Part shown: positions 1-45,297 of the stretch, piece by piece
Layout: every line of letters begins with the position of its first letter
Position numbering within the stretch: the first letter of the stretch is position 1
NCBI GenBank assembly: GCA_004299485.1
Contig: SCQP01000018.1
Coordinates: forward strand, 124,001-188,000
Length of the DNA: 64,000 nt
Direction of reading: 5' to 3'
DNA from: Acidobacteriota bacterium
GTDB lineage: Bacteria > Acidobacteriota > Terriglobia > Terriglobales > SCQP01
The notes under the pieces: model-generated
What the model saw: the letters and a program-made list of their open reading frames with translations, nothing else
What the model was told of the DNA's origin: nothing
Databases searched by the model: none
Program-made: the position numbers and the translations under genes

Positions 1-245
1 AACCGCCGGCGGCGCGGCGATGTGGGAGCGGGCGCGGGCGCCAGAAATATGACCGCCACCGCCGCGGCCAGCACGCCCGCCGCGTTCAGCAGCGTCGGGC
101 CCGCGTACACCCCAGAAGTCCAACCCAGAGACACCGCCGCGCCCACCGCAACCGCGGTGGCCATGCCGCGCGCCGCGGTCTGCCAGACGTGCACCGCGTC
201 GCCGCGCAGCCAGGCGCGCATACCGTGCTGGAGGGACAGGCTCAT
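1..245 (-). CDS. Partial hypothetical membrane protein (5' part only)
   Basis: The reading frame starts at an ATG whose first bases overlap the stop codon of the upstream diguanylate cyclase gene (ATGA arrangement), which suggests translational coupling. It runs off the left edge of the window. The visible 81 residues begin MSLSLQHGMRAWLRGDAVHV and contain two hydrophobic stretches, about residues 27-47 and 52-70, followed by a Pro/Arg-rich segment. I recognise no family. The coupling to a GGDEF gene is the only functional hint. Confidence 0.5.
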   Translation of the reverse strand, partial: MSLSLQHGMRAWLRGDAVHVWQTAARGMATAVAVGAAVSLGWTSGVYAGPTLLNAAGVLAAAVAVIFLAPAPAPTSPRRRR

Positions 246-1423
246 ACCGCAATCGGCGCCCGCGCGCGATGGTGATGGCTTTGCTTGGCGCGATACATTT
301 CCGCGTCGGCGGCATGGAGCAGTTCTTCAGGCGAAAAGCCGGAACCGGGGTACACCGCAAGACCAATGCTGGCGCCCAGGCTACGCTCGCGCAGCAGCGG
401 ATCGGCGGCCAGCATGGCCGCCATCCGCTCGGGCAGAAGCTGAGCGTTGGCGGGGTTGCAGGCCGGCGCCAACACCGTGAATTCGTCGCCGCCAAAGCGG
501 GCCACAATCGAGCCGGCGCGCGCGCTGCTTTGCAGCAGATGCCCGACATGCACCAGCAGACGATCCCCCTCCAGATGGCCATCGTGATCATTCAGGCGCT
601 TGAAGCCATCGAGATCAATCAGCACCAGCGCGAAGCCGCACTCCCCGGCTCCCTCACGGGCCGGCTGTGTCAGCGCGCTCTGCGCCCGCCGCCATTCGCT
701 CTCCAGTGCCTGCATGAAGAAGCGGCGCGTCTTCAAGCCGGTGAGCGCGTCGGTGACCGCCTGCTGCTGGATCTCGGCAAACAGACGGGCATTGTCCAGC
801 GCCACGCCTGCCTGCGCGGCCAGAACCTCAAGCACGTGCAGATGGCCGGTGTCGTAGGCGTATTCGCAGCGGTCGTTTTGCACCGACATAACGCCCTCAA
901 CTTTGCCCTGGGCGCGCATGGGTACGCCCATCCAGGTGCGCGCGGGCATGCCGCTGAGTACCAGGCCGTTGGCTGCGAGATAGCCCATCAGGTCGTGATC
1001 GATCAGCAGCGGACGGCCCATCTCGATGACGTGCTCGGTCACGCCACGTTTGCGCTCGCGCGTCCGCGGCGCGCGGCGCTCGCGGTTTTCTACCTCGAAG
1101 ACGAAGCGGATGCGGTTGGCCTCCCGCTCCTGAAAGGCAAGGTAGAACGAATCCACGGGCATGAGAGTTTGGAGCTGCTCGTAGATGGTTTGCAGCAGGC
1201 TGTCGGTGTCGAGCGAGGAACTGAGCGTGGTGCCGATACGGGTGAGGATTTCGAACTCGCGGCTGCGGCGCACCGACTTCCGGTCGATCGGGGCTCCCGC
1301 ACCGGCGGAGTTGCGGCGTTGGCCTACGGCCAGAAACACCGCCGCCACCAGCGCAGCACCGGCAACTGCGGCCACGGCCGCCAGAAGATAGACCATGCCC
1401 TCCTCCGTTCGGGAATCCCTCAA
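242..1423 (-). CDS. GAF-GGDEF diguanylate cyclase
   Basis: This is a predicted diguanylate cyclase making c-di-GMP from two GTP. The 393-residue protein has an N-terminal membrane helix (about 10-33), a GAF sensor domain (about 55-215) and a GGDEF domain (about 222-388) with an intact FGGDEF active-site motif near residue 310. The inhibitory I-site is absent: the position that should read RxxD five residues upstream is RAGS, so product inhibition through that site is unlikely. A second start at MVYLL (base 1396) sits just before the helix and is plausible. The ligand of the GAF domain cannot be read from sequence. Confidence 0.9.
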   Translation of the reverse strand: MRDSRTEEGMVYLLAAVAAVAGAALVAAVFLAVGQRRNSAGAGAPIDRKSVRRSREFEILTRIGTTLSSSLDTDSLLQTIYEQLQTLMPVDSFYLAFQEREANRIRFVFEVENRERRAPRTRERKRGVTEHVIEMGRPLLIDHDLMGYLAANGLVLSGMPARTWMGVPMRAQGKVEGVMSVQNDRCEYAYDTGHLHVLEVLAAQAGVALDNARLFAEIQQQAVTDALTGLKTRRFFMQALESEWRRAQSALTQPAREGAGECGFALVLIDLDGFKRLNDHDGHLEGDRLLVHVGHLLQSSARAGSIVARFGGDEFTVLAPACNPANAQLLPERMAAMLAADPLLRERSLGASIGLAVYPGSGFSPEELLHAADAEMYRAKQSHHHRARAPIAV

Positions 1424-38904: not shown

Positions 38905-39049
38905 CCCGCCCTCGCTCCCTATTGCTGAGACTGCTCCCAGGGGGGGAAGGTTGCGCAGAACCTTGCCAGCGCAGCTCATAACGGAGCTGGCGCGTAGAGG
39001 CTGCAGGCGCCAGTGGCGCGTTCGCGCGCATTGGGACGTCGGCTCTTAG

Positions 39050-39184
39050 TCTAACTTCACCCAAGCCGCCCAGCAACGCGACCTCGCCCCCCTCCTGATC
39101 GCCTCCTCCGCTCCCGCTAAGCAAACCACCGACTTTTTCGATGCCATCACCCGCGCACGCCAGCGTCTTCCCTTGATTTTCTGA
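39050..39184 (+). other. Startless coding-like fragment in the 38905-39264 gap
   Basis: A 44-codon open stretch reads SNFTQAAQQRDLAPLLIASS then APAKQTTDFFDAITRARQRL and stops at TGA 39182-39184. It has no start codon and an in-frame stop directly before it. Its composition is protein-like, and it may be the tail of a lost gene. I do not recognise it. The rest of this gap shows only GC-rich sequence and the left border of the low-GC island. Confidence 0.3.
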
Positions 39185-39264
39185 TCTCCGCAAAAGTTGC
39201 GGGCTGTGCTTATAAGACGGGAGCGCGCGGTGCGGGCCGCGCGCCCCGCTGAGGCGGGCAGGTA

Positions 39265-39774
39265 TCAGGTCAGATTATCGTTCAGGTTCCCTCCGGAATC
39301 GCCATTAAAGACCTTAAACAAGGCGGCGACCAATGCCTCCTGGCCGCTCCGATAGAGCCAAAACTGGGTGTGCCGGTTCCTCCATCCGCTCACGATGGCC
39401 ATCAGCGGCTTGGGTGACCGCGCTTGCTCGGAAGTCGCGATGTTTCGAGCGACCTTCAAATCTTTCCTGCTCGGTTCGGAAGAGCCTAAAGGATGTGTGT
39501 GCCAGTCGCCGAGGTATCCCCAATAGCGCCCCGATCGCTCATACGCGAGCGCTACCTGTTTGTCGTCGAACTCGTAATCAGGTACGAAGCTGAAAAGCCG
39601 ATGGGCCGCGCGCGGGCCTGGGCGAGTTGCGGCCATCACAGCAGCGCTACCATCGTCGTTCCAGTAACCCAACAATAGACCGCCAGCTTCAAACGGACAA
39701 AATTGAGCTGCCACTTCCAACATCACTCCCTGAGCGGCGAATTCTAACCACACCGAACTCAATGGCTCCGGCAT
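39265..39774 (-). CDS. JAB/MPN JAMM-motif metalloprotease of the E2-E1 locus
   Basis: The 169-residue protein is a zinc isopeptidase-like JAB domain. A complete JAMM motif is visible: Glu29 in PFEAGGLLLG, then His92 and His94 (WHTHP), Ser102 and Asp105 in HTHPLGSSEPSRKD. In known systems (Cap3 of CBASS, BilC) such proteins remove a modifier or process its C terminus. Its first codons overlap the end of the E2-E1 gene by 16 bp, so the two are coupled. The base composition is lower in GC than the flanks. Confidence 0.9.
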   Translation of the reverse strand: MPEPLSSVWLEFAAQGVMLEVAAQFCPFEAGGLLLGYWNDDGSAAVMAATRPGPRAAHRLFSFVPDYEFDDKQVALAYERSGRYWGYLGDWHTHPLGSSEPSRKDLKVARNIATSEQARSPKPLMAIVSGWRNRHTQFWLYRSGQEALVAALFKVFNGDSGGNLNDNLT

Positions 39775-41462
39775 TCAGGATGCCTTTCGAGGGAGCCAAC
39801 AGTCCAGGATGGCGCGCAGAGCGCGCCTTTTGGCGTTCGCAGCGTGAGCGTGCCGACATCCCAGTTGGTGGCAGGATAGCCGCCGGGACAATTCTCTAGA
39901 AGCGTGGAAACGGCCAAGCGTATGCCCGCTAGGGATACCTCCTGCACGTCGAAGGCTGCTGCGGTAAAGGTTGGCAAATTGCAGCCTTGTGGCTGGATAA
40001 GTGTCATTGGTGGGGCCTCGGGAAGAGTCGGGAGCAAACCATCGTCCTCATTCTTCAAGAAACACCACCAGCAACCCAGGGTCGCGTTGGGGCGAATCCT
40101 CACGAGCCGACCTCCCCAACCGCCATGAGTTGAGTAGGCACAAATGTAGGGCAGAGAACGTGCACGAGCCATTGCTGATACGAGCATGTGCAAACCTGGA
40201 TCAGCGGTCGCATCGAAAACCAGGTCAATGCCATCTAACAATCGCGTTTCCGTCGCGAGGTCCAGGCCGCCCATTGATACAGCGGAGCCCACGCGCGTCT
40301 CGCTGACGGTTACCTTCGTTCGCGGGAAGTTCTCGCGAAGAAAGGCGTTTAGCGCCCAACCCTTCGCTTCGCCCGAATGCACAACCCCAAGCGGCCAACG
40401 GACGACCGTGCCCGGCTCGATGAAATCGGGTTCCACCAGGCGGAGGTCGCCGATTCCGGCTTTGGCCAGCTCGATAGCCACTGGGGCGCCCACGCACCCG
40501 AGTCCGATGATGGCGACCGCTTTGCCTTCAAGTGAAGAAAGTTCCGGTATGCGGAGGAGCATGTCTTGGTTGCCGGCGCGGCCGGCTCTGGCGAAATACG
40601 TCGCAGGCAGTGCCTTTCCATCTCGAAAACCGTTCCGCCGTACAGGGTGTTCGACGACAAAAAGCCATCCGTCCCCAGATGATTCTCGCTGTTTGATTTC
40701 TTCAGGAAAAATAATCCCTGTGATTAGCGGCGCGCTGCTTGGCCTCCCCAGCGGCCGTGGACTCATTTGCTGGCGTACCATCTCAAGAAAACGCGTGGCC
40801 TGAAATTCGAGGATCGGCGCAGCAACGCGTGACCAATCGCCAGAAAAAGTCGCGGCGTTGTATAGATCTCGCAAAGCAGGGTCGGCAACGGCGACGATTT
40901 GGCCCGAAGGATCTCGAAGTTCGAGCACGGCCGCGCTAATCGTCTTTTCGGTGAGGTACCGACAACCGACTAGCATCGTACCCGAGCTGCAAGTGGACAG
41001 ATTCCAGGATGAATCGACCAGCACAATTGAACTGGGCGCGTACGGATAATAAGCACTGACGGGCTCCGCCTGTTCGGCCTCTTGGCCTGCGGCCGCAGAT
41101 TTATCCTTGCTAATGCCTAGCTCCAATACACGCGGTAGGCGGTCACGAAGGCATTCGGCAAGGTAATCTTCCGGTCCCCAGCTCCCGGTGTTCGCGAACA
41201 GGCAGAGGTTCTTTGCGAATGGGTTCTGATGATGTTCCAGCGCGAGACTCTTCGCGAAAAGCTCGAAGCGAGTGTGCGGGTAGGTTGGTGGGAATTCCGC
41301 AACCATCTCGACAGACTGTTCCTGTGCCGTCAATGACAGCGCCATCGTCAGCACACCTCTTCTGGCGTCCTGCTCTTGAACTGTGAACTCAATCCCAGCA
41401 TCCCTGAGCGCATCGAGTTCGAACTTGAGGCGCTCAGGAATGCGCTCCCACCAGGGCTTCAC
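39759..41462 (-). CDS. E2-E1 fusion protein (UBC-like plus ThiF/E1 adenylation domain)
   Basis: The 567-residue protein begins with an E2/UBC-like domain (about 1-115). Cys87 in NPFAKNLCLF is followed by GSWGPEDY, the bacterial E2 pattern. A middle region (about 135-305) is unassigned. The C-terminal E1 domain has the Rossmann loop VAIIGLGCVGAPVAIELAKA (about 315), IEPGTVVRWPLG, DLVFDATADP, CWWC at 464-467 and GCNLPTFT (Cys494, candidate catalytic Cys). The order E2 then E1 followed by JAB is that of CBASS Cap2/Cap3. Its GTG start overlaps the stop of the 42-residue gene. Confidence 0.88.
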   Translation of the reverse strand: MKPWWERIPERLKFELDALRDAGIEFTVQEQDARRGVLTMALSLTAQEQSVEMVAEFPPTYPHTRFELFAKSLALEHHQNPFAKNLCLFANTGSWGPEDYLAECLRDRLPRVLELGISKDKSAAAGQEAEQAEPVSAYYPYAPSSIVLVDSSWNLSTCSSGTMLVGCRYLTEKTISAAVLELRDPSGQIVAVADPALRDLYNAATFSGDWSRVAAPILEFQATRFLEMVRQQMSPRPLGRPSSAPLITGIIFPEEIKQRESSGDGWLFVVEHPVRRNGFRDGKALPATYFARAGRAGNQDMLLRIPELSSLEGKAVAIIGLGCVGAPVAIELAKAGIGDLRLVEPDFIEPGTVVRWPLGVVHSGEAKGWALNAFLRENFPRTKVTVSETRVGSAVSMGGLDLATETRLLDGIDLVFDATADPGLHMLVSAMARARSLPYICAYSTHGGWGGRLVRIRPNATLGCWWCFLKNEDDGLLPTLPEAPPMTLIQPQGCNLPTFTAAAFDVQEVSLAGIRLAVSTLLENCPGGYPATNWDVGTLTLRTPKGALCAPSWTVGSLERHPECRSH

Positions 41463-41587
41463 CCCACCTCCCTGTGATGAGGAGGTCGCGGCGGATTTGG
41501 CGGCCCCGGCGGATGGCCCGGCTTGGGTGGGTGTTCATGTTGAGGAGACGATTCCGGCTCCCGCGGCTTCTGGTCTGGTTTCGACAT
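41459..41587 (-). CDS. 42-residue Pro/His-rich peptide ending in glycine
   Basis: The frame starts MSKPDQKPREPESSPQHEHP, continues as a Pro-Pro-rich stretch and ends HHREVG. A ribosome-binding site (AGGAG) lies 8 bases before the ATG. Its TGA overlaps the GTG of the E2-E1 gene (GTGA), so the genes are probably translationally coupled. It has no beta-grasp length and no hydrophobic core. The terminal Gly is what an E1 would need for adenylation. A modifier or a substrate tail is a hypothesis. Confidence 0.6.
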   Translation of the reverse strand: MSKPDQKPREPESSPQHEHPPKPGHPPGPPNPPRPPHHREVG

Positions 41588-41612
41588 TTAATCTCCTAGG
41601 AATCAGGTTTGT

Positions 41613-41798
41613 TTAGGCCGAAAGGAAATCCTCGATCCCATGGCTCAGCAAATGCTCCGCCAGGGTCCGGCATCCACGGTCGCAGTTGGGGGTTGATAGC
41701 AATATGCAAGCGGCGCCGACCCAAAGCAACGCCGCAAGCCAGCCCGAGTTCTTCGGTGTTGTCACGCTCAATTCCCTCCGTTCCGATTTTCCGTGCAT
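41613..41798 (-). CDS. 61-residue small protein with one membrane helix
   Basis: One frame reads MHGKSERRELSVTTPKNSG, a hydrophobic WLAALLWVGAACILLSTPN and a C-terminal NCDRGCRTLAEHLLSHGIED. Third codon positions are richer in GC in this frame than in an overlapping alternative frame (41596-41805), so I favour it. It ends 25 bp before the 42-residue gene. No clear ribosome-binding site is seen. It would be a membrane-anchored component with a Cys pair. I do not recognise it. Confidence 0.45.
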   Translation of the reverse strand: MHGKSERRELSVTTPKNSGWLAALLWVGAACILLSTPNCDRGCRTLAEHLLSHGIEDFLSA

Positions 41799-41801
41799 GT
41801 T

Positions 41802-41830
41802 TCATTTGTGAGTGCTAATCTCCCAAATGA
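41802..41830. promoter_or_regulatory. Inverted repeat between the E2-E1 operon and the XRE gene
   Basis: The arms TCATTTG (41802-41808) and CAAATGA (41824-41830) are perfect, with a 15-base spacer, in the 108-bp gap between the divergent genes. It overlaps the 5' end of the leftward operon. A site for the adjacent XRE protein is a reasonable inference. Confidence 0.5.
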
Positions 41831-41906
41831 TGAACATGAGGGGACTGTACGCCACTCGGCTTCCTTTGTCAAACTGTGTTTTATATTTGAGACAGGAGGG
41901 TAGGCG

Positions 41907-42287
41907 ATGACGCTTTTGCGCCTCGGGGCAGCGCTCCGTGATAGAAGGGGCACGCGCGGCGTTCGCGAGCTTGCGGCGGAAATTGGAATCAGTCCGGCTA
42001 CGCTATCGCGCGTTGAAGGGGGCAAGCTTCCTGACCTGGTCACTTTCCGGAAAATTTGTGTCTGGCTGAAAATCGATCCGGCACAAATCCTAGGCCTTCC
42101 CGGTGCTCAGGAGGGGTCAACCGAGCCCTCAATTCCGGACTCGATGACGGTAGCCGTTCACCTTCGGGCAGATGCGCAACTGTCCCAAGAAGCCGCCGGC
42201 GATTTGGCCGCGCTAATTCTTGCCGCCCAAAGAGAACTGGCTGGCAGAGTACGGGATGGGCGTGCCGATGTTCCGTCGTGGGTTTAA
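41907..42287 (+). CDS. XRE-family helix-turn-helix regulator
   Basis: The N-terminal HTH is VRELAAEIGISPATLSRVEG, with LVTFRKICVWLKIDPAQILG completing the five-helix domain. The C-terminal half is unassigned. A good ribosome-binding site (AGGAGGG) precedes the ATG. The downstream ImmA-like gene overlaps its 3' end by 32 bp. XRE/ImmA pairs typically control mobile elements or defence systems, with the protease cleaving the repressor. Confidence 0.9.
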   Translation: MTLLRLGAALRDRRGTRGVRELAAEIGISPATLSRVEGGKLPDLVTFRKICVWLKIDPAQILGLPGAQEGSTEPSIPDSMTVAVHLRADAQLSQEAAGDLAALILAAQRELAGRVRDGRADVPSWV

Positions 42288-42837
42288 GACGTGGTCGGAG
42301 GAGACCGCAGCTCATGTTAGACAAGCGCTCCAGATTGCAATGGACGCGCCTCTGGAGCCACTGCGTATGGCCGAGTATTTAAGTGTTCCGGTTCTACGGC
42401 CTCTGGATCTTTCGGGACTTGCGCCGGAGGTTATCGGCCGCCTGTCGGCCTCGCACCGCGAAGCGTGGTCGGCGATTACGGTAGCCAATGGCCGGCACAA
42501 GCTCATCGTCATTAATCCGGCGCATTCGCAGGCACGTCAAAATAGCAGCCTCGCCCATGAGCTTGCGCACATAATTCTTGACCATGAGCCCTCGTTGATG
42601 TTCATGGCGCCCGGGAGCGGCGCTGTGTTGAGGACGCACAACAAGGAGCAAGAGGACGAAGCGGGATGGCTTGCAGGGACTCTGCTGCTCCCAAGAGCGG
42701 CGCTTCTTAAGATCAGACGCAGGCGGCTCACGAACGAGGAGGCTTGCACCGAATACTTCGTCAGCGCAGCCATGCTCCGGTTCCGACTCAACGCAACCGG
42801 TGTCAATGTGCAAATCAGGCGTGCCGGTCGGATTTGA
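42256..42837 (+). CDS. ImmA/IrrE-family zinc metallopeptidase
   Basis: The catalytic motif SSLAHELAHIILDH supplies the HExxH-type zinc site, followed by EDEAGWLAGTLLLPRAAL, the conserved third-ligand region, and the EACTEYFVSAAMLRFRLNATG helix pair. The ATG at 42256 (MGVPMFRRGFKTWSE) is favoured over one at 42220. In ImmA-ImmR type switches the protease removes the HTH repressor. Here the target is likely the upstream XRE protein. Confidence 0.92.
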   Translation: MGVPMFRRGFKTWSEETAAHVRQALQIAMDAPLEPLRMAEYLSVPVLRPLDLSGLAPEVIGRLSASHREAWSAITVANGRHKLIVINPAHSQARQNSSLAHELAHIILDHEPSLMFMAPGSGAVLRTHNKEQEDEAGWLAGTLLLPRAALLKIRRRRLTNEEACTEYFVSAAMLRFRLNATGVNVQIRRAGRI

Positions 42838-42860
42838 ACGGTTTGCAAAGCAGGCCGCCC

Positions 42861-43079
42861 ATGAATGCACGAAGACTGGCTGCATCAACCGATATGCATA
42901 GTGTTCCGGAACACTCCTGTCCTGCCAACGTTCGGCAAACGCTTGCTTTATCTTCTCCGGCCGACAAGCGATTGCACGGTGTTCTCAAAGAGCTTGCATT
43001 GAAAGGACGGCTGGAGTGCGACATGCGCGATGCCGAAGCTGGCCTGCCGAACCTCCCGCCGACCCTCAAGGGGAAATGA
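42861..43079 (+). CDS. Hypothetical 72-residue protein downstream of the ImmA-like gene
   Basis: The frame starts MNARRLAASTDMHSVPEHSC and contains DKRLHGVLKELALKGRLECD. It is soluble, with moderately low GC like its neighbours, and begins 23 bp after the ImmA stop. Codons 14-18 overlie a perfect 16-bp DNA palindrome (42900-42915). I do not recognise it. It could also be non-coding sequence before the repeat copy. Confidence 0.4.
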   Translation: MNARRLAASTDMHSVPEHSCPANVRQTLALSSPADKRLHGVLKELALKGRLECDMRDAEAGLPNLPPTLKGK

Positions 43080-43109
43080 AAACACCCCCACAAGCGCTGG
43101 CTTTCTGGC

Positions 43110-43220
43110 GTGGCTCGCCACTTTTTGCCCTGGTCGCTCCCGCTGGTCGCTCGGAGTGCGGGCTTCGATTCCCGGCAGGGTCCGCCCACTGGCGCTCAGG
43201 GCTCCTCCAAGCTGCCACCG
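43110..43220 (-). repeat. 111-bp dispersed element, copy 6 (inverted)
   Basis: This is the only copy in opposite orientation. It has CGGTGGCAGC at its start, GCCAGTGGGC, CTCCGAGCG and ACCAGCGGG, making it among the more diverged copies. It lies between the small hypothetical gene and the 316-residue gene, inside the low-GC island although the element itself is GC-rich. Confidence 0.95.
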
Positions 43221-43236
43221 AATTCAGGTGTTCCGC

Positions 43237-44187
43237 TTAATCACGCTCAGAACTTGGCTGAATTTCACGCAAGTCGAGCAATAGAAAAGTCTCAATCGTT
43301 CGCCCCGGCTTTTTGGTCTCGCGCTTCCGTAAGACCGCCTGCCAACGCCGCCCGACGAGCTGCTCCTGATGTATGCGTTCGAGATATGTTTCACTGAAAA
43401 TCTCCGCAACTTTTCCGGAGATGAGTTCGCCTCCGGGATACGTCCTGAACTCAAACCGACGCCCGTACGGTACTACCCCTATCAGTTCTCCCTCGACCGG
43501 AATGTCGTCCTCTGCAATCTCGGTGGCTTCGACTCTACTGTATGCCCTTTCGATTGCAGCTTGATCAAACGGCATCTCTCGCTCGTCCTCGACAAGCCGG
43601 AATACTGCATGCTCACTGCGAATCTCCTTAAAGAAGTCCCTCAGGGACGAAAATATCCGTGGATTTATCTCTTCAACCAGAGCGCTGAACGGACGATCGT
43701 CTTCGGCCGCGACTTGCTCCATGTAATCGGTTACCTTGCTGATTGTTTGCTTTAGCGGCGTTGGGAAGAGCGGTTCACCTCGCTCGTCAAGTTCCTCCAA
43801 CAAGAACCCGACCGATCCGTGGACAAGGTTCGTGATGTGGAGTCGTGTGGCATCGCGATCCTTAATCTGTCCTCGCAATGCCAAGGCGCCACACTGGAGA
43901 GTTGCCCCGACTTTCGACACAAGATCCTGATAAGTGGATACAATGGAAGAAGCGAAATCGGCCTGAATTCCGCGGCTGCCGATGACGGGGCCACCCCCAA
44001 AGTATAGTGCGACTGCGGCTCGCCGTTCCTCCATAGTGTCGAGTTCGGCTAATCTGCCTCGTAGCTCTTGGACTCGCGAGCTAAATCCTAGCAGGCCTAC
44101 GGGATCATTTGCCGGAAGTGAACCGAGGATCGCTTCAACCGACGCGATCTCAGCAACGAGCTGGTCCCGCTCGATTTTGCGAATCAT
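43237..44187 (-). CDS. Unrecognised 316-residue protein paired with a DUF6932-like nucleotidyltransferase
   Basis: The start MIRKIERDQLVAEIASVE overlaps the upstream gene stop (ATGA). The protein opens with a probable coiled coil (about 1-55), then a helix-rich body with FASSIVSTYQDLVSKVGATL and LVHGSVGFLLEELDERGE, and ends in a beta-rich domain (GELIGVVPYGRRFEFRTYPG, then TIETFLLLDLREIQ). No membrane helix or catalytic motif stands out. The tight coupling to the nucleotidyltransferase suggests a two-protein module. Confidence 0.7.
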   Translation of the reverse strand: MIRKIERDQLVAEIASVEAILGSLPANDPVGLLGFSSRVQELRGRLAELDTMEERRAAVALYFGGGPVIGSRGIQADFASSIVSTYQDLVSKVGATLQCGALALRGQIKDRDATRLHITNLVHGSVGFLLEELDERGEPLFPTPLKQTISKVTDYMEQVAAEDDRPFSALVEEINPRIFSSLRDFFKEIRSEHAVFRLVEDEREMPFDQAAIERAYSRVEATEIAEDDIPVEGELIGVVPYGRRFEFRTYPGGELISGKVAEIFSETYLERIHQEQLVGRRWQAVLRKRETKKPGRTIETFLLLDLREIQPSSERD

Positions 44188-44798
44188 GGCTGTATCCCCG
44201 GCATAAGCAGTGCGGCTGCGGCATGGTCCGCTGCCGTGATTGCAAGTGGCACCTCTAACATGCCCTTCCATTCGCCCGTCACCCTCCTGTGTGAAAAGAG
44301 GCCATACCAGTAGCGAGTCTGAGCAACCAGCGTTAGTGGATCGATGTCCAGATCCACGAAGTAGGAATCGCAGTGATAATTTTGTTTATTCGATAAAGGA
44401 TGGAACAAGGTCGAGTTCGAGGCGAAGAACTCGGCCCATAATGGGTCGGAACGCAAATGCGGTGGGCGCCGGAAGAAGGTCACAACGTCGAGATCGTTCG
44501 GATTACGGCTTTCCCGAACTTCAATCAACTCTGTAAAGCTGCCATCTAGCCACTGGAACCCGTCATTCAGACCTGCCTTTTGTAAGGCCAGCCTGAACTG
44601 AAGGAATCCTCGAAAGATCTCGGATCGCTTCGCGGTGTGCGACAGTGCTCTGGCTACGACCTCGACCGAAGTAGGATATGGTGCCAAGGATTGCGGCTGC
44701 GCGGGATTGGTGCCGCAGTATGGCGGGAGTAACCCGGCCAGTGTGAATGCTGGCAAGGCCGTGAAGAGCACTGAAGGGGTGTAAGTTGGAGTACCCAT
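44184..44798 (-). CDS. DUF6932-like nucleotidyltransferase-fold protein
   Basis: The N-terminal ALPAFTLAGLLPPYCGTNP and the active-site-like FQWLDGSFTELIEVRESRNP followed by NDLDVVTFF fit the DUF6932 group. These have a polymerase-beta-type GS motif and DxD (NDLDVV). MGTPTYTPSV is a likely start; another ATG lies five codons upstream. Related proteins are found near toxin-antitoxin and phage-defence genes. The nucleotide product or target is unknown. The composition differs from the housekeeping flanks. Confidence 0.72.
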   Translation of the reverse strand: MGTPTYTPSVLFTALPAFTLAGLLPPYCGTNPAQPQSLAPYPTSVEVVARALSHTAKRSEIFRGFLQFRLALQKAGLNDGFQWLDGSFTELIEVRESRNPNDLDVVTFFRRPPHLRSDPLWAEFFASNSTLFHPLSNKQNYHCDSYFVDLDIDPLTLVAQTRYWYGLFSHRRVTGEWKGMLEVPLAITAADHAAAALLMPGIQP

Positions 44799-44813
44799 CG
44801 GGCCGAAAAACAA

Positions 44814-45297
44814 TCAGCGGAAAACATATATCGAACAGGTTTGAACGCGCCGCAAAGCCGAGGCTTGAATTCTAGCGCGCATACGATCACCTGAGCGATC
44901 TTCGAACATTAACAGCTTGCCATGAGGAAAGTGTATGGCCAAAGCGCGCTTGCCCGATGGCGATTTAGCGGGGCCGCTGGGGTTAACCAGAGGGTTACCG
45001 ATCGCCGCGCGATCTCTTACGGTTCGGTTAGCGTAGAGCTTCGGATTGTACGCATCCGGATGCCGCTCGGGCCCTCAGCCTCTCGCTTCTCGCGCCGCCA
45101 GGCTATAACCGCTTTGATTCCGCTCTAAGAGCGGCGGTTTTGCGAAGCGCTCCCGGAGCAGGGCGGGCGTCCCAAGCGGAGCTGGGGCGTAGGGGCTCCA
45201 GCGCAGCGGGCCGTCGGCCTTTGAGAGCGGGGCAAACGACGCAGTGCGTCGTTTGCGGGCGAAGCCCGGCTGGGTGCCCGCGACCATATAATGAACT
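44814..45297. other. Gene-free gap upstream of ileS, right border of the low-GC island
   Basis: From 44814 to about 45100 the sequence is AT-richer and holds only short frames without good starts; one of 68 codons at 44922-45128 is not convincing. From 45118 to 45290 it becomes strongly GC-rich and repeat-like. No promoter for ileS is obvious, and I see no T-box or other riboswitch motif. Confidence 0.6.
45232..45256. repeat. Hairpin within a GC-rich repeated segment before ileS
   Basis: The arms GCAAACGACG and CGTCGTTTGC form a perfect 10-bp stem with a 5-base loop. The right arm belongs to the 28-base segment (45244-45271) shared with 29221-29248. The tail GGGTGCCCGCGA also recurs at the end of the rluD gene. 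There is no T-run, so it is not a standard terminator. Confidence 0.6.

Follow-up and report, generated by a model that had tools for sequence, protein, structure and literature searches.

AbiE acts by abortive infection (PMC3985639, PMC10435456). The position of rexAB in lambda, and of bstA in BTP1, is a common site of accessory and exclusion genes that are expressed by the lysogen (PMC7067206). DUF6575 is a domain of an E. coli defence system found by functional selection and an XRE-peptidase fusion acts in PD-lambda-2, a defence system resembling toxin-antitoxin pairs (both PMC9519451). PDC-M63AB is listed as a candidate defence system but is unproven; in one test, with 10 phages, the version from E. 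coli NILS69 showed no defence that could be measured (PMC12409345). Here, we describe a gene pair that can be set beside each of these. The pair was found in a 64,000 nucleotide stretch of DNA from an Acidobacteriota bacterium, which we call the window. The features are listed below.

44184..44798, minus strand: DUF6932 nucleotidyltransferase (NTase), the first gene; ATG start, 204 amino acids
NTase residues 86-88 (GSF), D102-x-D104 and D144 (third Asp), minus strand: active-site motifs of the polymerase-beta type (GSF...NDLDVV)
43237..44187, minus strand: partner, the second gene; ATG start, 316 amino acids
Partner residues 2-51, 58-200 and about 223-312, minus strand: helical hairpin, alpha/beta domain and OB fold, respectively, from the predicted structure
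44184..44187, minus strand: ATGA, the 4-base overlap of the first-gene stop and second-gene start, read from the sequence
39046..45297, no strand: genomic island (approximate limits) holding the pair with E2-E1, JAB, XRE and ImmA/IrrE genes, flanked by a TonB-like gene and ileS
39265-41462, minus strand: operon of an E2-E1 fusion and Prok-JAB, diverging from the XRE and ImmA/IrrE genes
41907-42837, plus strand: XRE and ImmA/IrrE genes, convergent with the NTase-partner pair

A first-pass annotation of the window had described an ATGA-overlapping gene pair in a low-GC setting. We recovered both open reading frames on the minus strand at these coordinates, with the 4-base overlap, and GC content across the pair's stretch is 0.55-0.57 compared with 0.62-0.70 in most of the window. 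The same -4 overlap between the DUF6932 and partner genes is common to many homologous loci. The flanking genes are separated by ~6.2 kb in the window. In a genome of the same genus (G398) the gap between the TonB-like gene and ileS is ~37 bp. Hence, the pair is cargo of an island that has been gained. Judged by content, this is probably a defence island and, by layout, the pair is predicted to be its own transcription unit, separate from the E2-E1 operon.

The ImmA/IrrE gene is capP-like (PADLOC 7e-13), and the E2-E1/JAB operon with its XRE-ImmA layout resembles ubiquitin-like operons regulated by a protein pair of the CapH/CapP type. An analogous arrangement occurs on a Bradyrhizobium plasmid (L009), where a multiubiquitin/ThiF/DUF6527 and XRE-ImmA set sits beside a homologous NTase pair. 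We also noted a 42-codon Pro/His-rich open reading frame (41459-41587, minus strand; MSKPDQKPREPESS...HHREVG), the end of which overlaps the start of the E2-E1 gene. This could be a small member of the E2-E1 operon or a chance occurrence. Searches with tblastn, using the E2-E1, JAB, XRE and ImmA proteins of the window against the other pair loci, returned nothing at 1e-4; this excludes only close homologues because the ubiquitin-like set of L009 was also missed. Among the annotated loci that we read, L009 is the only one with a ubiquitin-like operon alongside the pair. The suggestion that the pair supplies the nucleotide signalling of a system akin to the E2-E1 operon is not supported: the pair is separate and convergent, such an operon accompanies it at that one locus among those read, and the NTase has neither the size nor the profile matches of a CD-NTase.

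The assignment of the first gene to DUF6932 held when checked against PF22014 (E 1e-27, 98 bits; cut-off 27). The NTase is also matched by the PADLOC model for PDC-M63A (PDLC04744) at E 7e-10, and its homologues at 4e-14 to 4e-6. No other profile in Pfam, NCBIfam or PADLOC matched the NTase. All of the marks of the polymerase-beta superfamily are present, namely hG[GS], DxD and a third acidic residue. The active site proposed in the first-pass annotation (GSF, NDLDVV) is well conserved: D102, D104 and G86 are found in 42/42 sequences, S87 and F88 in 41/42, and D144 in 40/42. Thus, loss of the catalytic Asp pair, for which we looked among the homologues, was seen in none of the 42. One paired NTase (L004 938-1504, the same as L007 3060-3626) has MGPPSPDG in place of GSF and retains the DxD; it is possibly a decayed or altered copy. 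Alignments of all NTases, or of all partners, proved too varied to be scanned for a pattern.

The structure of the NTase was modelled with a pLDDT of 87 and a pTM of 0.86. The top three Foldseek matches of this model were MNT antitoxins (7ae9, 7ae2; E 0.03-0.04, prob ~0.6). VIA placed AadA first (Z 5.1, rmsd 3.9, 110 residues), followed by small putative nucleotidyltransferases, AAD(9), KNTase and MNT (Z 3.6-4.9; MNT itself Z 3.6). The CD-NTase CdnD scored Z 3.2. Given these low fold scores, and the motifs, the evidence speaks to superfamily membership rather than to activity. By its motifs and predicted fold, the NTase is a minimal member of the polymerase-beta nucleotidyltransferase superfamily.

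The second gene had been called an unrecognised coiled-coil protein. It is indeed unrecognised, with no family match in Pfam, NCBIfam, PADLOC or PDB sequences, and searches of PDB sequences with both proteins and both profiles gave no significant match. The coiled-coil description fits the first ~50 residues only; in the model (pLDDT 90, pTM 0.78) the remainder is a folded alpha/beta domain and an OB fold. The latter resembles the Rim1 single-strand-binding protein (VIA Z 8.7, rmsd 2.3, 80 residues), and what Foldseek and VIA match in the partner is mainly the OB part and the hairpin. Its best viral fold match is a DUF6575 phage protein (BFVD A0A8S5QA00; Foldseek E 1.9e-13, prob 1.00). Superposition of the two gave an rmsd of 15.4 over 290 columns, so the whole chains are not superposable as one body. 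A protein of Leptospira phage LE1 was the second BFVD match. Partner homologues share little identity (aligned with the window protein, 20-35%) and conserved positions are mostly Gly or hydrophobic (GxPVxGxxGIxAxF, GSFGF). No alignment column has His in at least 60% of the 29 partners, and there is no conserved acidic set suggesting an enzyme. From its sequence, then, the partner looks non-catalytic. Since the NTase has kept its active site, and the partner has mostly Gly and hydrophobic conservation without a conserved His, the enzyme is probably the NTase.

The gene pair is real, obligate and mobile. When viral contigs were searched using only the NTase, 37 viral or prophage loci were identified, and the partner was the next, overlapping gene in every one (E 1e-31 to 1e-99). 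Missing co-occurrence, which would have spoken against the pairing proposed in the first-pass annotation, was thus sought and not found. Reciprocally, the partner query found three other Acidobacteriota genomes among 396, and four plasmids among 72,556 records; the NTase was directly upstream in all seven. A scan of genome contigs returned one locus only, which was already in the set. The exceptions are few. On the Rhizobium plasmid L012 an intact NTase is followed immediately by a transposase where the partner would be, the partner is truncated at L047, and the contig ends at L051. Distances among NTases and among partners co-vary (r 0.875, 0/2000 permutations; shared descent is not removed by this test), and purifying selection acts on both genes (dN 0.02-0.16, dS 0.25-1.95 where computable). 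Taken together, the constant order and overlap, the invariant DxD, a dN far below dS and the co-varying distances make this a pairing that recurs beyond chance.

The pair is carried by prophages, plasmids and genomic islands. In 10/10 loci tested, the gene upstream of the pair encodes a phage repressor or regulator, and at least 24 of the 37 phage loci carry such a gene (CI-type repressor or regulator) on the pair's strand and no more than 1.3 kb away, with the pair just behind it. DNA matching the pair occurs in 34 of 5426 complete E. coli genomes, and in eight of these the match covers at least 80% of the pair. The two E. coli loci that we read both belong to lambdoid prophages, in which a LexA/CI-type repressor gene immediately precedes the pair. 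Because this is a site of the rexAB/bstA type, exclusion of other phages is the likeliest benefit. Phage isolate records contained no match to the NTase, whether of the window or of E. coli, or to the window partner; hence, the link to phages rests on prophages and viral contigs. The overlapping exclusion genes of Pseudomonas phage Fc02 (7.9 and 20.7 kDa products, encoded upstream of the repressor) were considered as a known member and rejected.

Other DUF6932 genes also have an overlapping or abutting second gene, but of other kinds. At L019, L020, L022, L023, L027, L028 and L030 the second gene encodes a bare hairpin of ~70 amino acids. The hairpin is joined to XRE at L013, L014, L017, L096 and L098, to XRE and/or an M78 peptidase or a long tail at L094, L095, L097 and L099, and to a body at L021. 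The ~70 amino acid proteins, which overlap the end of short DUF6932 genes, are candidate minimal antitoxins; that of L027 has no Pfam match. In profile comparisons, the small hairpins and the XRE N-termini were homologous (95% probability). The L021 protein acts as a bridge, its hairpin matching the small hairpins (96%, E 3e-9) and the protein matching the window partner family (94%, E 2e-7, 236 columns). Compared directly, the window-type and small hairpins match weakly (1-21% probability); from their position, and the L021 bridge, we infer that they correspond. Neither the L021-type pair nor the DUF6932-bare-hairpin queries found viral loci, and the L021 partner and bare hairpin had no plasmid matches. 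Exchange of second genes beside a constant catalytic first gene is a toxin-antitoxin trait and, hence, argues for DUF6932 as a toxin-like component.

Bodies resembling the partner also occur without the hairpin. These lie directly upstream of PIN-domain genes at L034 (1468-2828) and L101 (1471-2888), where PF01850 matches at 1e-5 and 6e-18, respectively, suggesting a further toxin-antitoxin arrangement. The hairpin-less bodies resemble PADLOC PDC-M32A. Across L032 (1420-2969) and L035-L039, a PDC-M32A-like protein is followed by an unrecognised protein of ~130 amino acids, and the C-terminal part of PDC-M32A is also found alone in several genomes.

The idea of a nucleotidylation-based toxin-antitoxin pair, raised in the first-pass annotation, fits best; it accommodates overlapping, antitoxin-like second genes of changing architecture and hairpin-less bodies ahead of PIN toxins. 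On balance, and by a narrow judgement, the pair is probably a toxin-first, toxin-antitoxin-like anti-phage (phage-exclusion) module. Once released, the DUF6932 protein would nucleotidylate a tRNA or protein of the host, and this modification would stop growth or phage production. The partner would restrain the NTase via the N-terminal helical hairpin, with the alpha/beta-OB body as a regulatory or sensing part that lets go during infection. Obligate pairing, the kept active site, the exchangeable second gene, the repressor-adjacent site and the PIN-linked bodies are consistent with such a module. Conversely, the null result with PDC-M63AB, the truncated partner at L047 and the weak direct hairpin match count against it, and the intact NTase without its partner at L012 is unexpected if the NTase is a toxin when free. 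The genes, their pairing, the intact active site, the predicted folds, the conservation and the mobile, repressor-adjacent setting are shown by the data; we infer the toxicity and which protein causes it, what is modified, what sets it off, and the role in defence against phages. More tentatively, DUF6932 may comprise a wide range of nucleotidyltransferase toxins whose antitoxins can be exchanged and have the hairpin in common; the alpha/beta-OB body of the window's partner would sense infection, and the pair would be an abortive-infection module, linked to repressors, that prophages, plasmids and islands disseminate.

The repressor-adjacent location, an OB fold like that of single-strand-binding proteins and the persistence of a partnerless NTase at L012 would also suit a superinfection-exclusion enzyme, one of the two main rival readings and not a toxin-antitoxin pair in the strict sense. 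Here, the NTase would act on a molecule of the phage or the host solely while infection is under way, the OB partner would be an activator that binds phage nucleic acid, and the uninfected cell would be unharmed. We think this unlikely, as exchange of the second gene for XRE or XRE-peptidase proteins, and PIN-paired bodies, are typical of toxin-antitoxin loci. That XRE proteins replace the partner beside other DUF6932 genes also speaks against the other main rival, a reversal of the pair on the model of HepT-MntA, where the partner would be toxic and the NTase, like MNT, would be the antitoxin that silences it by nucleotidylation. The first three Foldseek matches of the NTase, all MNT antitoxins, point this way. 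However, the partner has no HEPN-like conserved His and looks non-catalytic, while MNT is not singled out in VIA, where AadA and others score higher. The reversed pair is accordingly a quite improbable reading.

Two features could indicate signalling, in which the NTase would produce a nucleotide messenger, cyclic or linear, to activate the partner: the polymerase-beta-type active site, and the proximity of an E2-E1/JAB operon such as type II CBASS employs. This is very improbable. The NTase has only 204 amino acids, matches no CD-NTase profile and reaches only Z 3.2 with CdnD; no effector domain was recognised in the partner, and the pair usually occurs without an operon of the E2-E1/JAB type.

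For an orphan pair, and for a candidate (PDC-M63, DUF6932) that had no definition, the toxin-first model offers something testable: a toxic protein, an enzyme target and the hairpin as a common DUF6932-binding element. If true, this would add a family of nucleotidyltransferase toxins with interchangeable antitoxins, and the partner bodies near PIN toxins and in the PDC-M32A and DUF6575 candidates would be joined into one regulatory module. E. coli prophages with the pair are usable laboratory material.

How, then, does the pair compare with known systems? AbiE and MenAT likewise have two genes, for a nucleotidyltransferase-like enzyme and a regulatory second protein (PMC3985639, PMC10435456). 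Conversely, the enzyme gene comes first here, the partner is made of hairpin, alpha/beta and OB parts, and identity was rejected as neither protein matches an AbiEii (DUF1814) or AbiEi/MenA profile. HepT-MntA (HEPN-MNT) is likewise a two-gene unit and may share the minimal nucleotidyltransferase fold; the partner has no HEPN profile match or Rx4-6H motif and, hence, by these tests the pair is not HepT-MntA. The 204 amino acid NTase is hit by none of the CD-NTase models of Pfam, NCBIfam or PADLOC, so by that test the pair is not CBASS, and by sequence the partner has no known effector domain. Any likeness to DUF6575 is one of fold, as the match of the partner model to the phage protein may suggest; PF20215 (DUF6575) had no match at E 10 in 10 genomes or records, including the window's own, and none in Pfam scans of partners. 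To lambda rexAB and BTP1 bstA the likeness is one of position, directly behind the prophage repressor.

The closest system is PDC-M63, which has a first gene of the same family, two genes and a home in prophages. It differs in that the window's own partner is recognised by no PDC-M63B model, even at E 1. For one of these models (PDLC04746) there were zero matches in 35 genomes or records, so that it is no test of absence. Since PDC-M63AB gave no defence against 10 phages, we offer a defence role for the window pair as a proposal. A partner homologue at L075 (E 6e-62 to the family) matches PDC-M63B models PDLC04749 (4.1e-5) and PDLC04750 (1.6e-3). On the strength of the former match, the window pair appears to be a divergent relative of PDC-M63AB, and is best filed as such.
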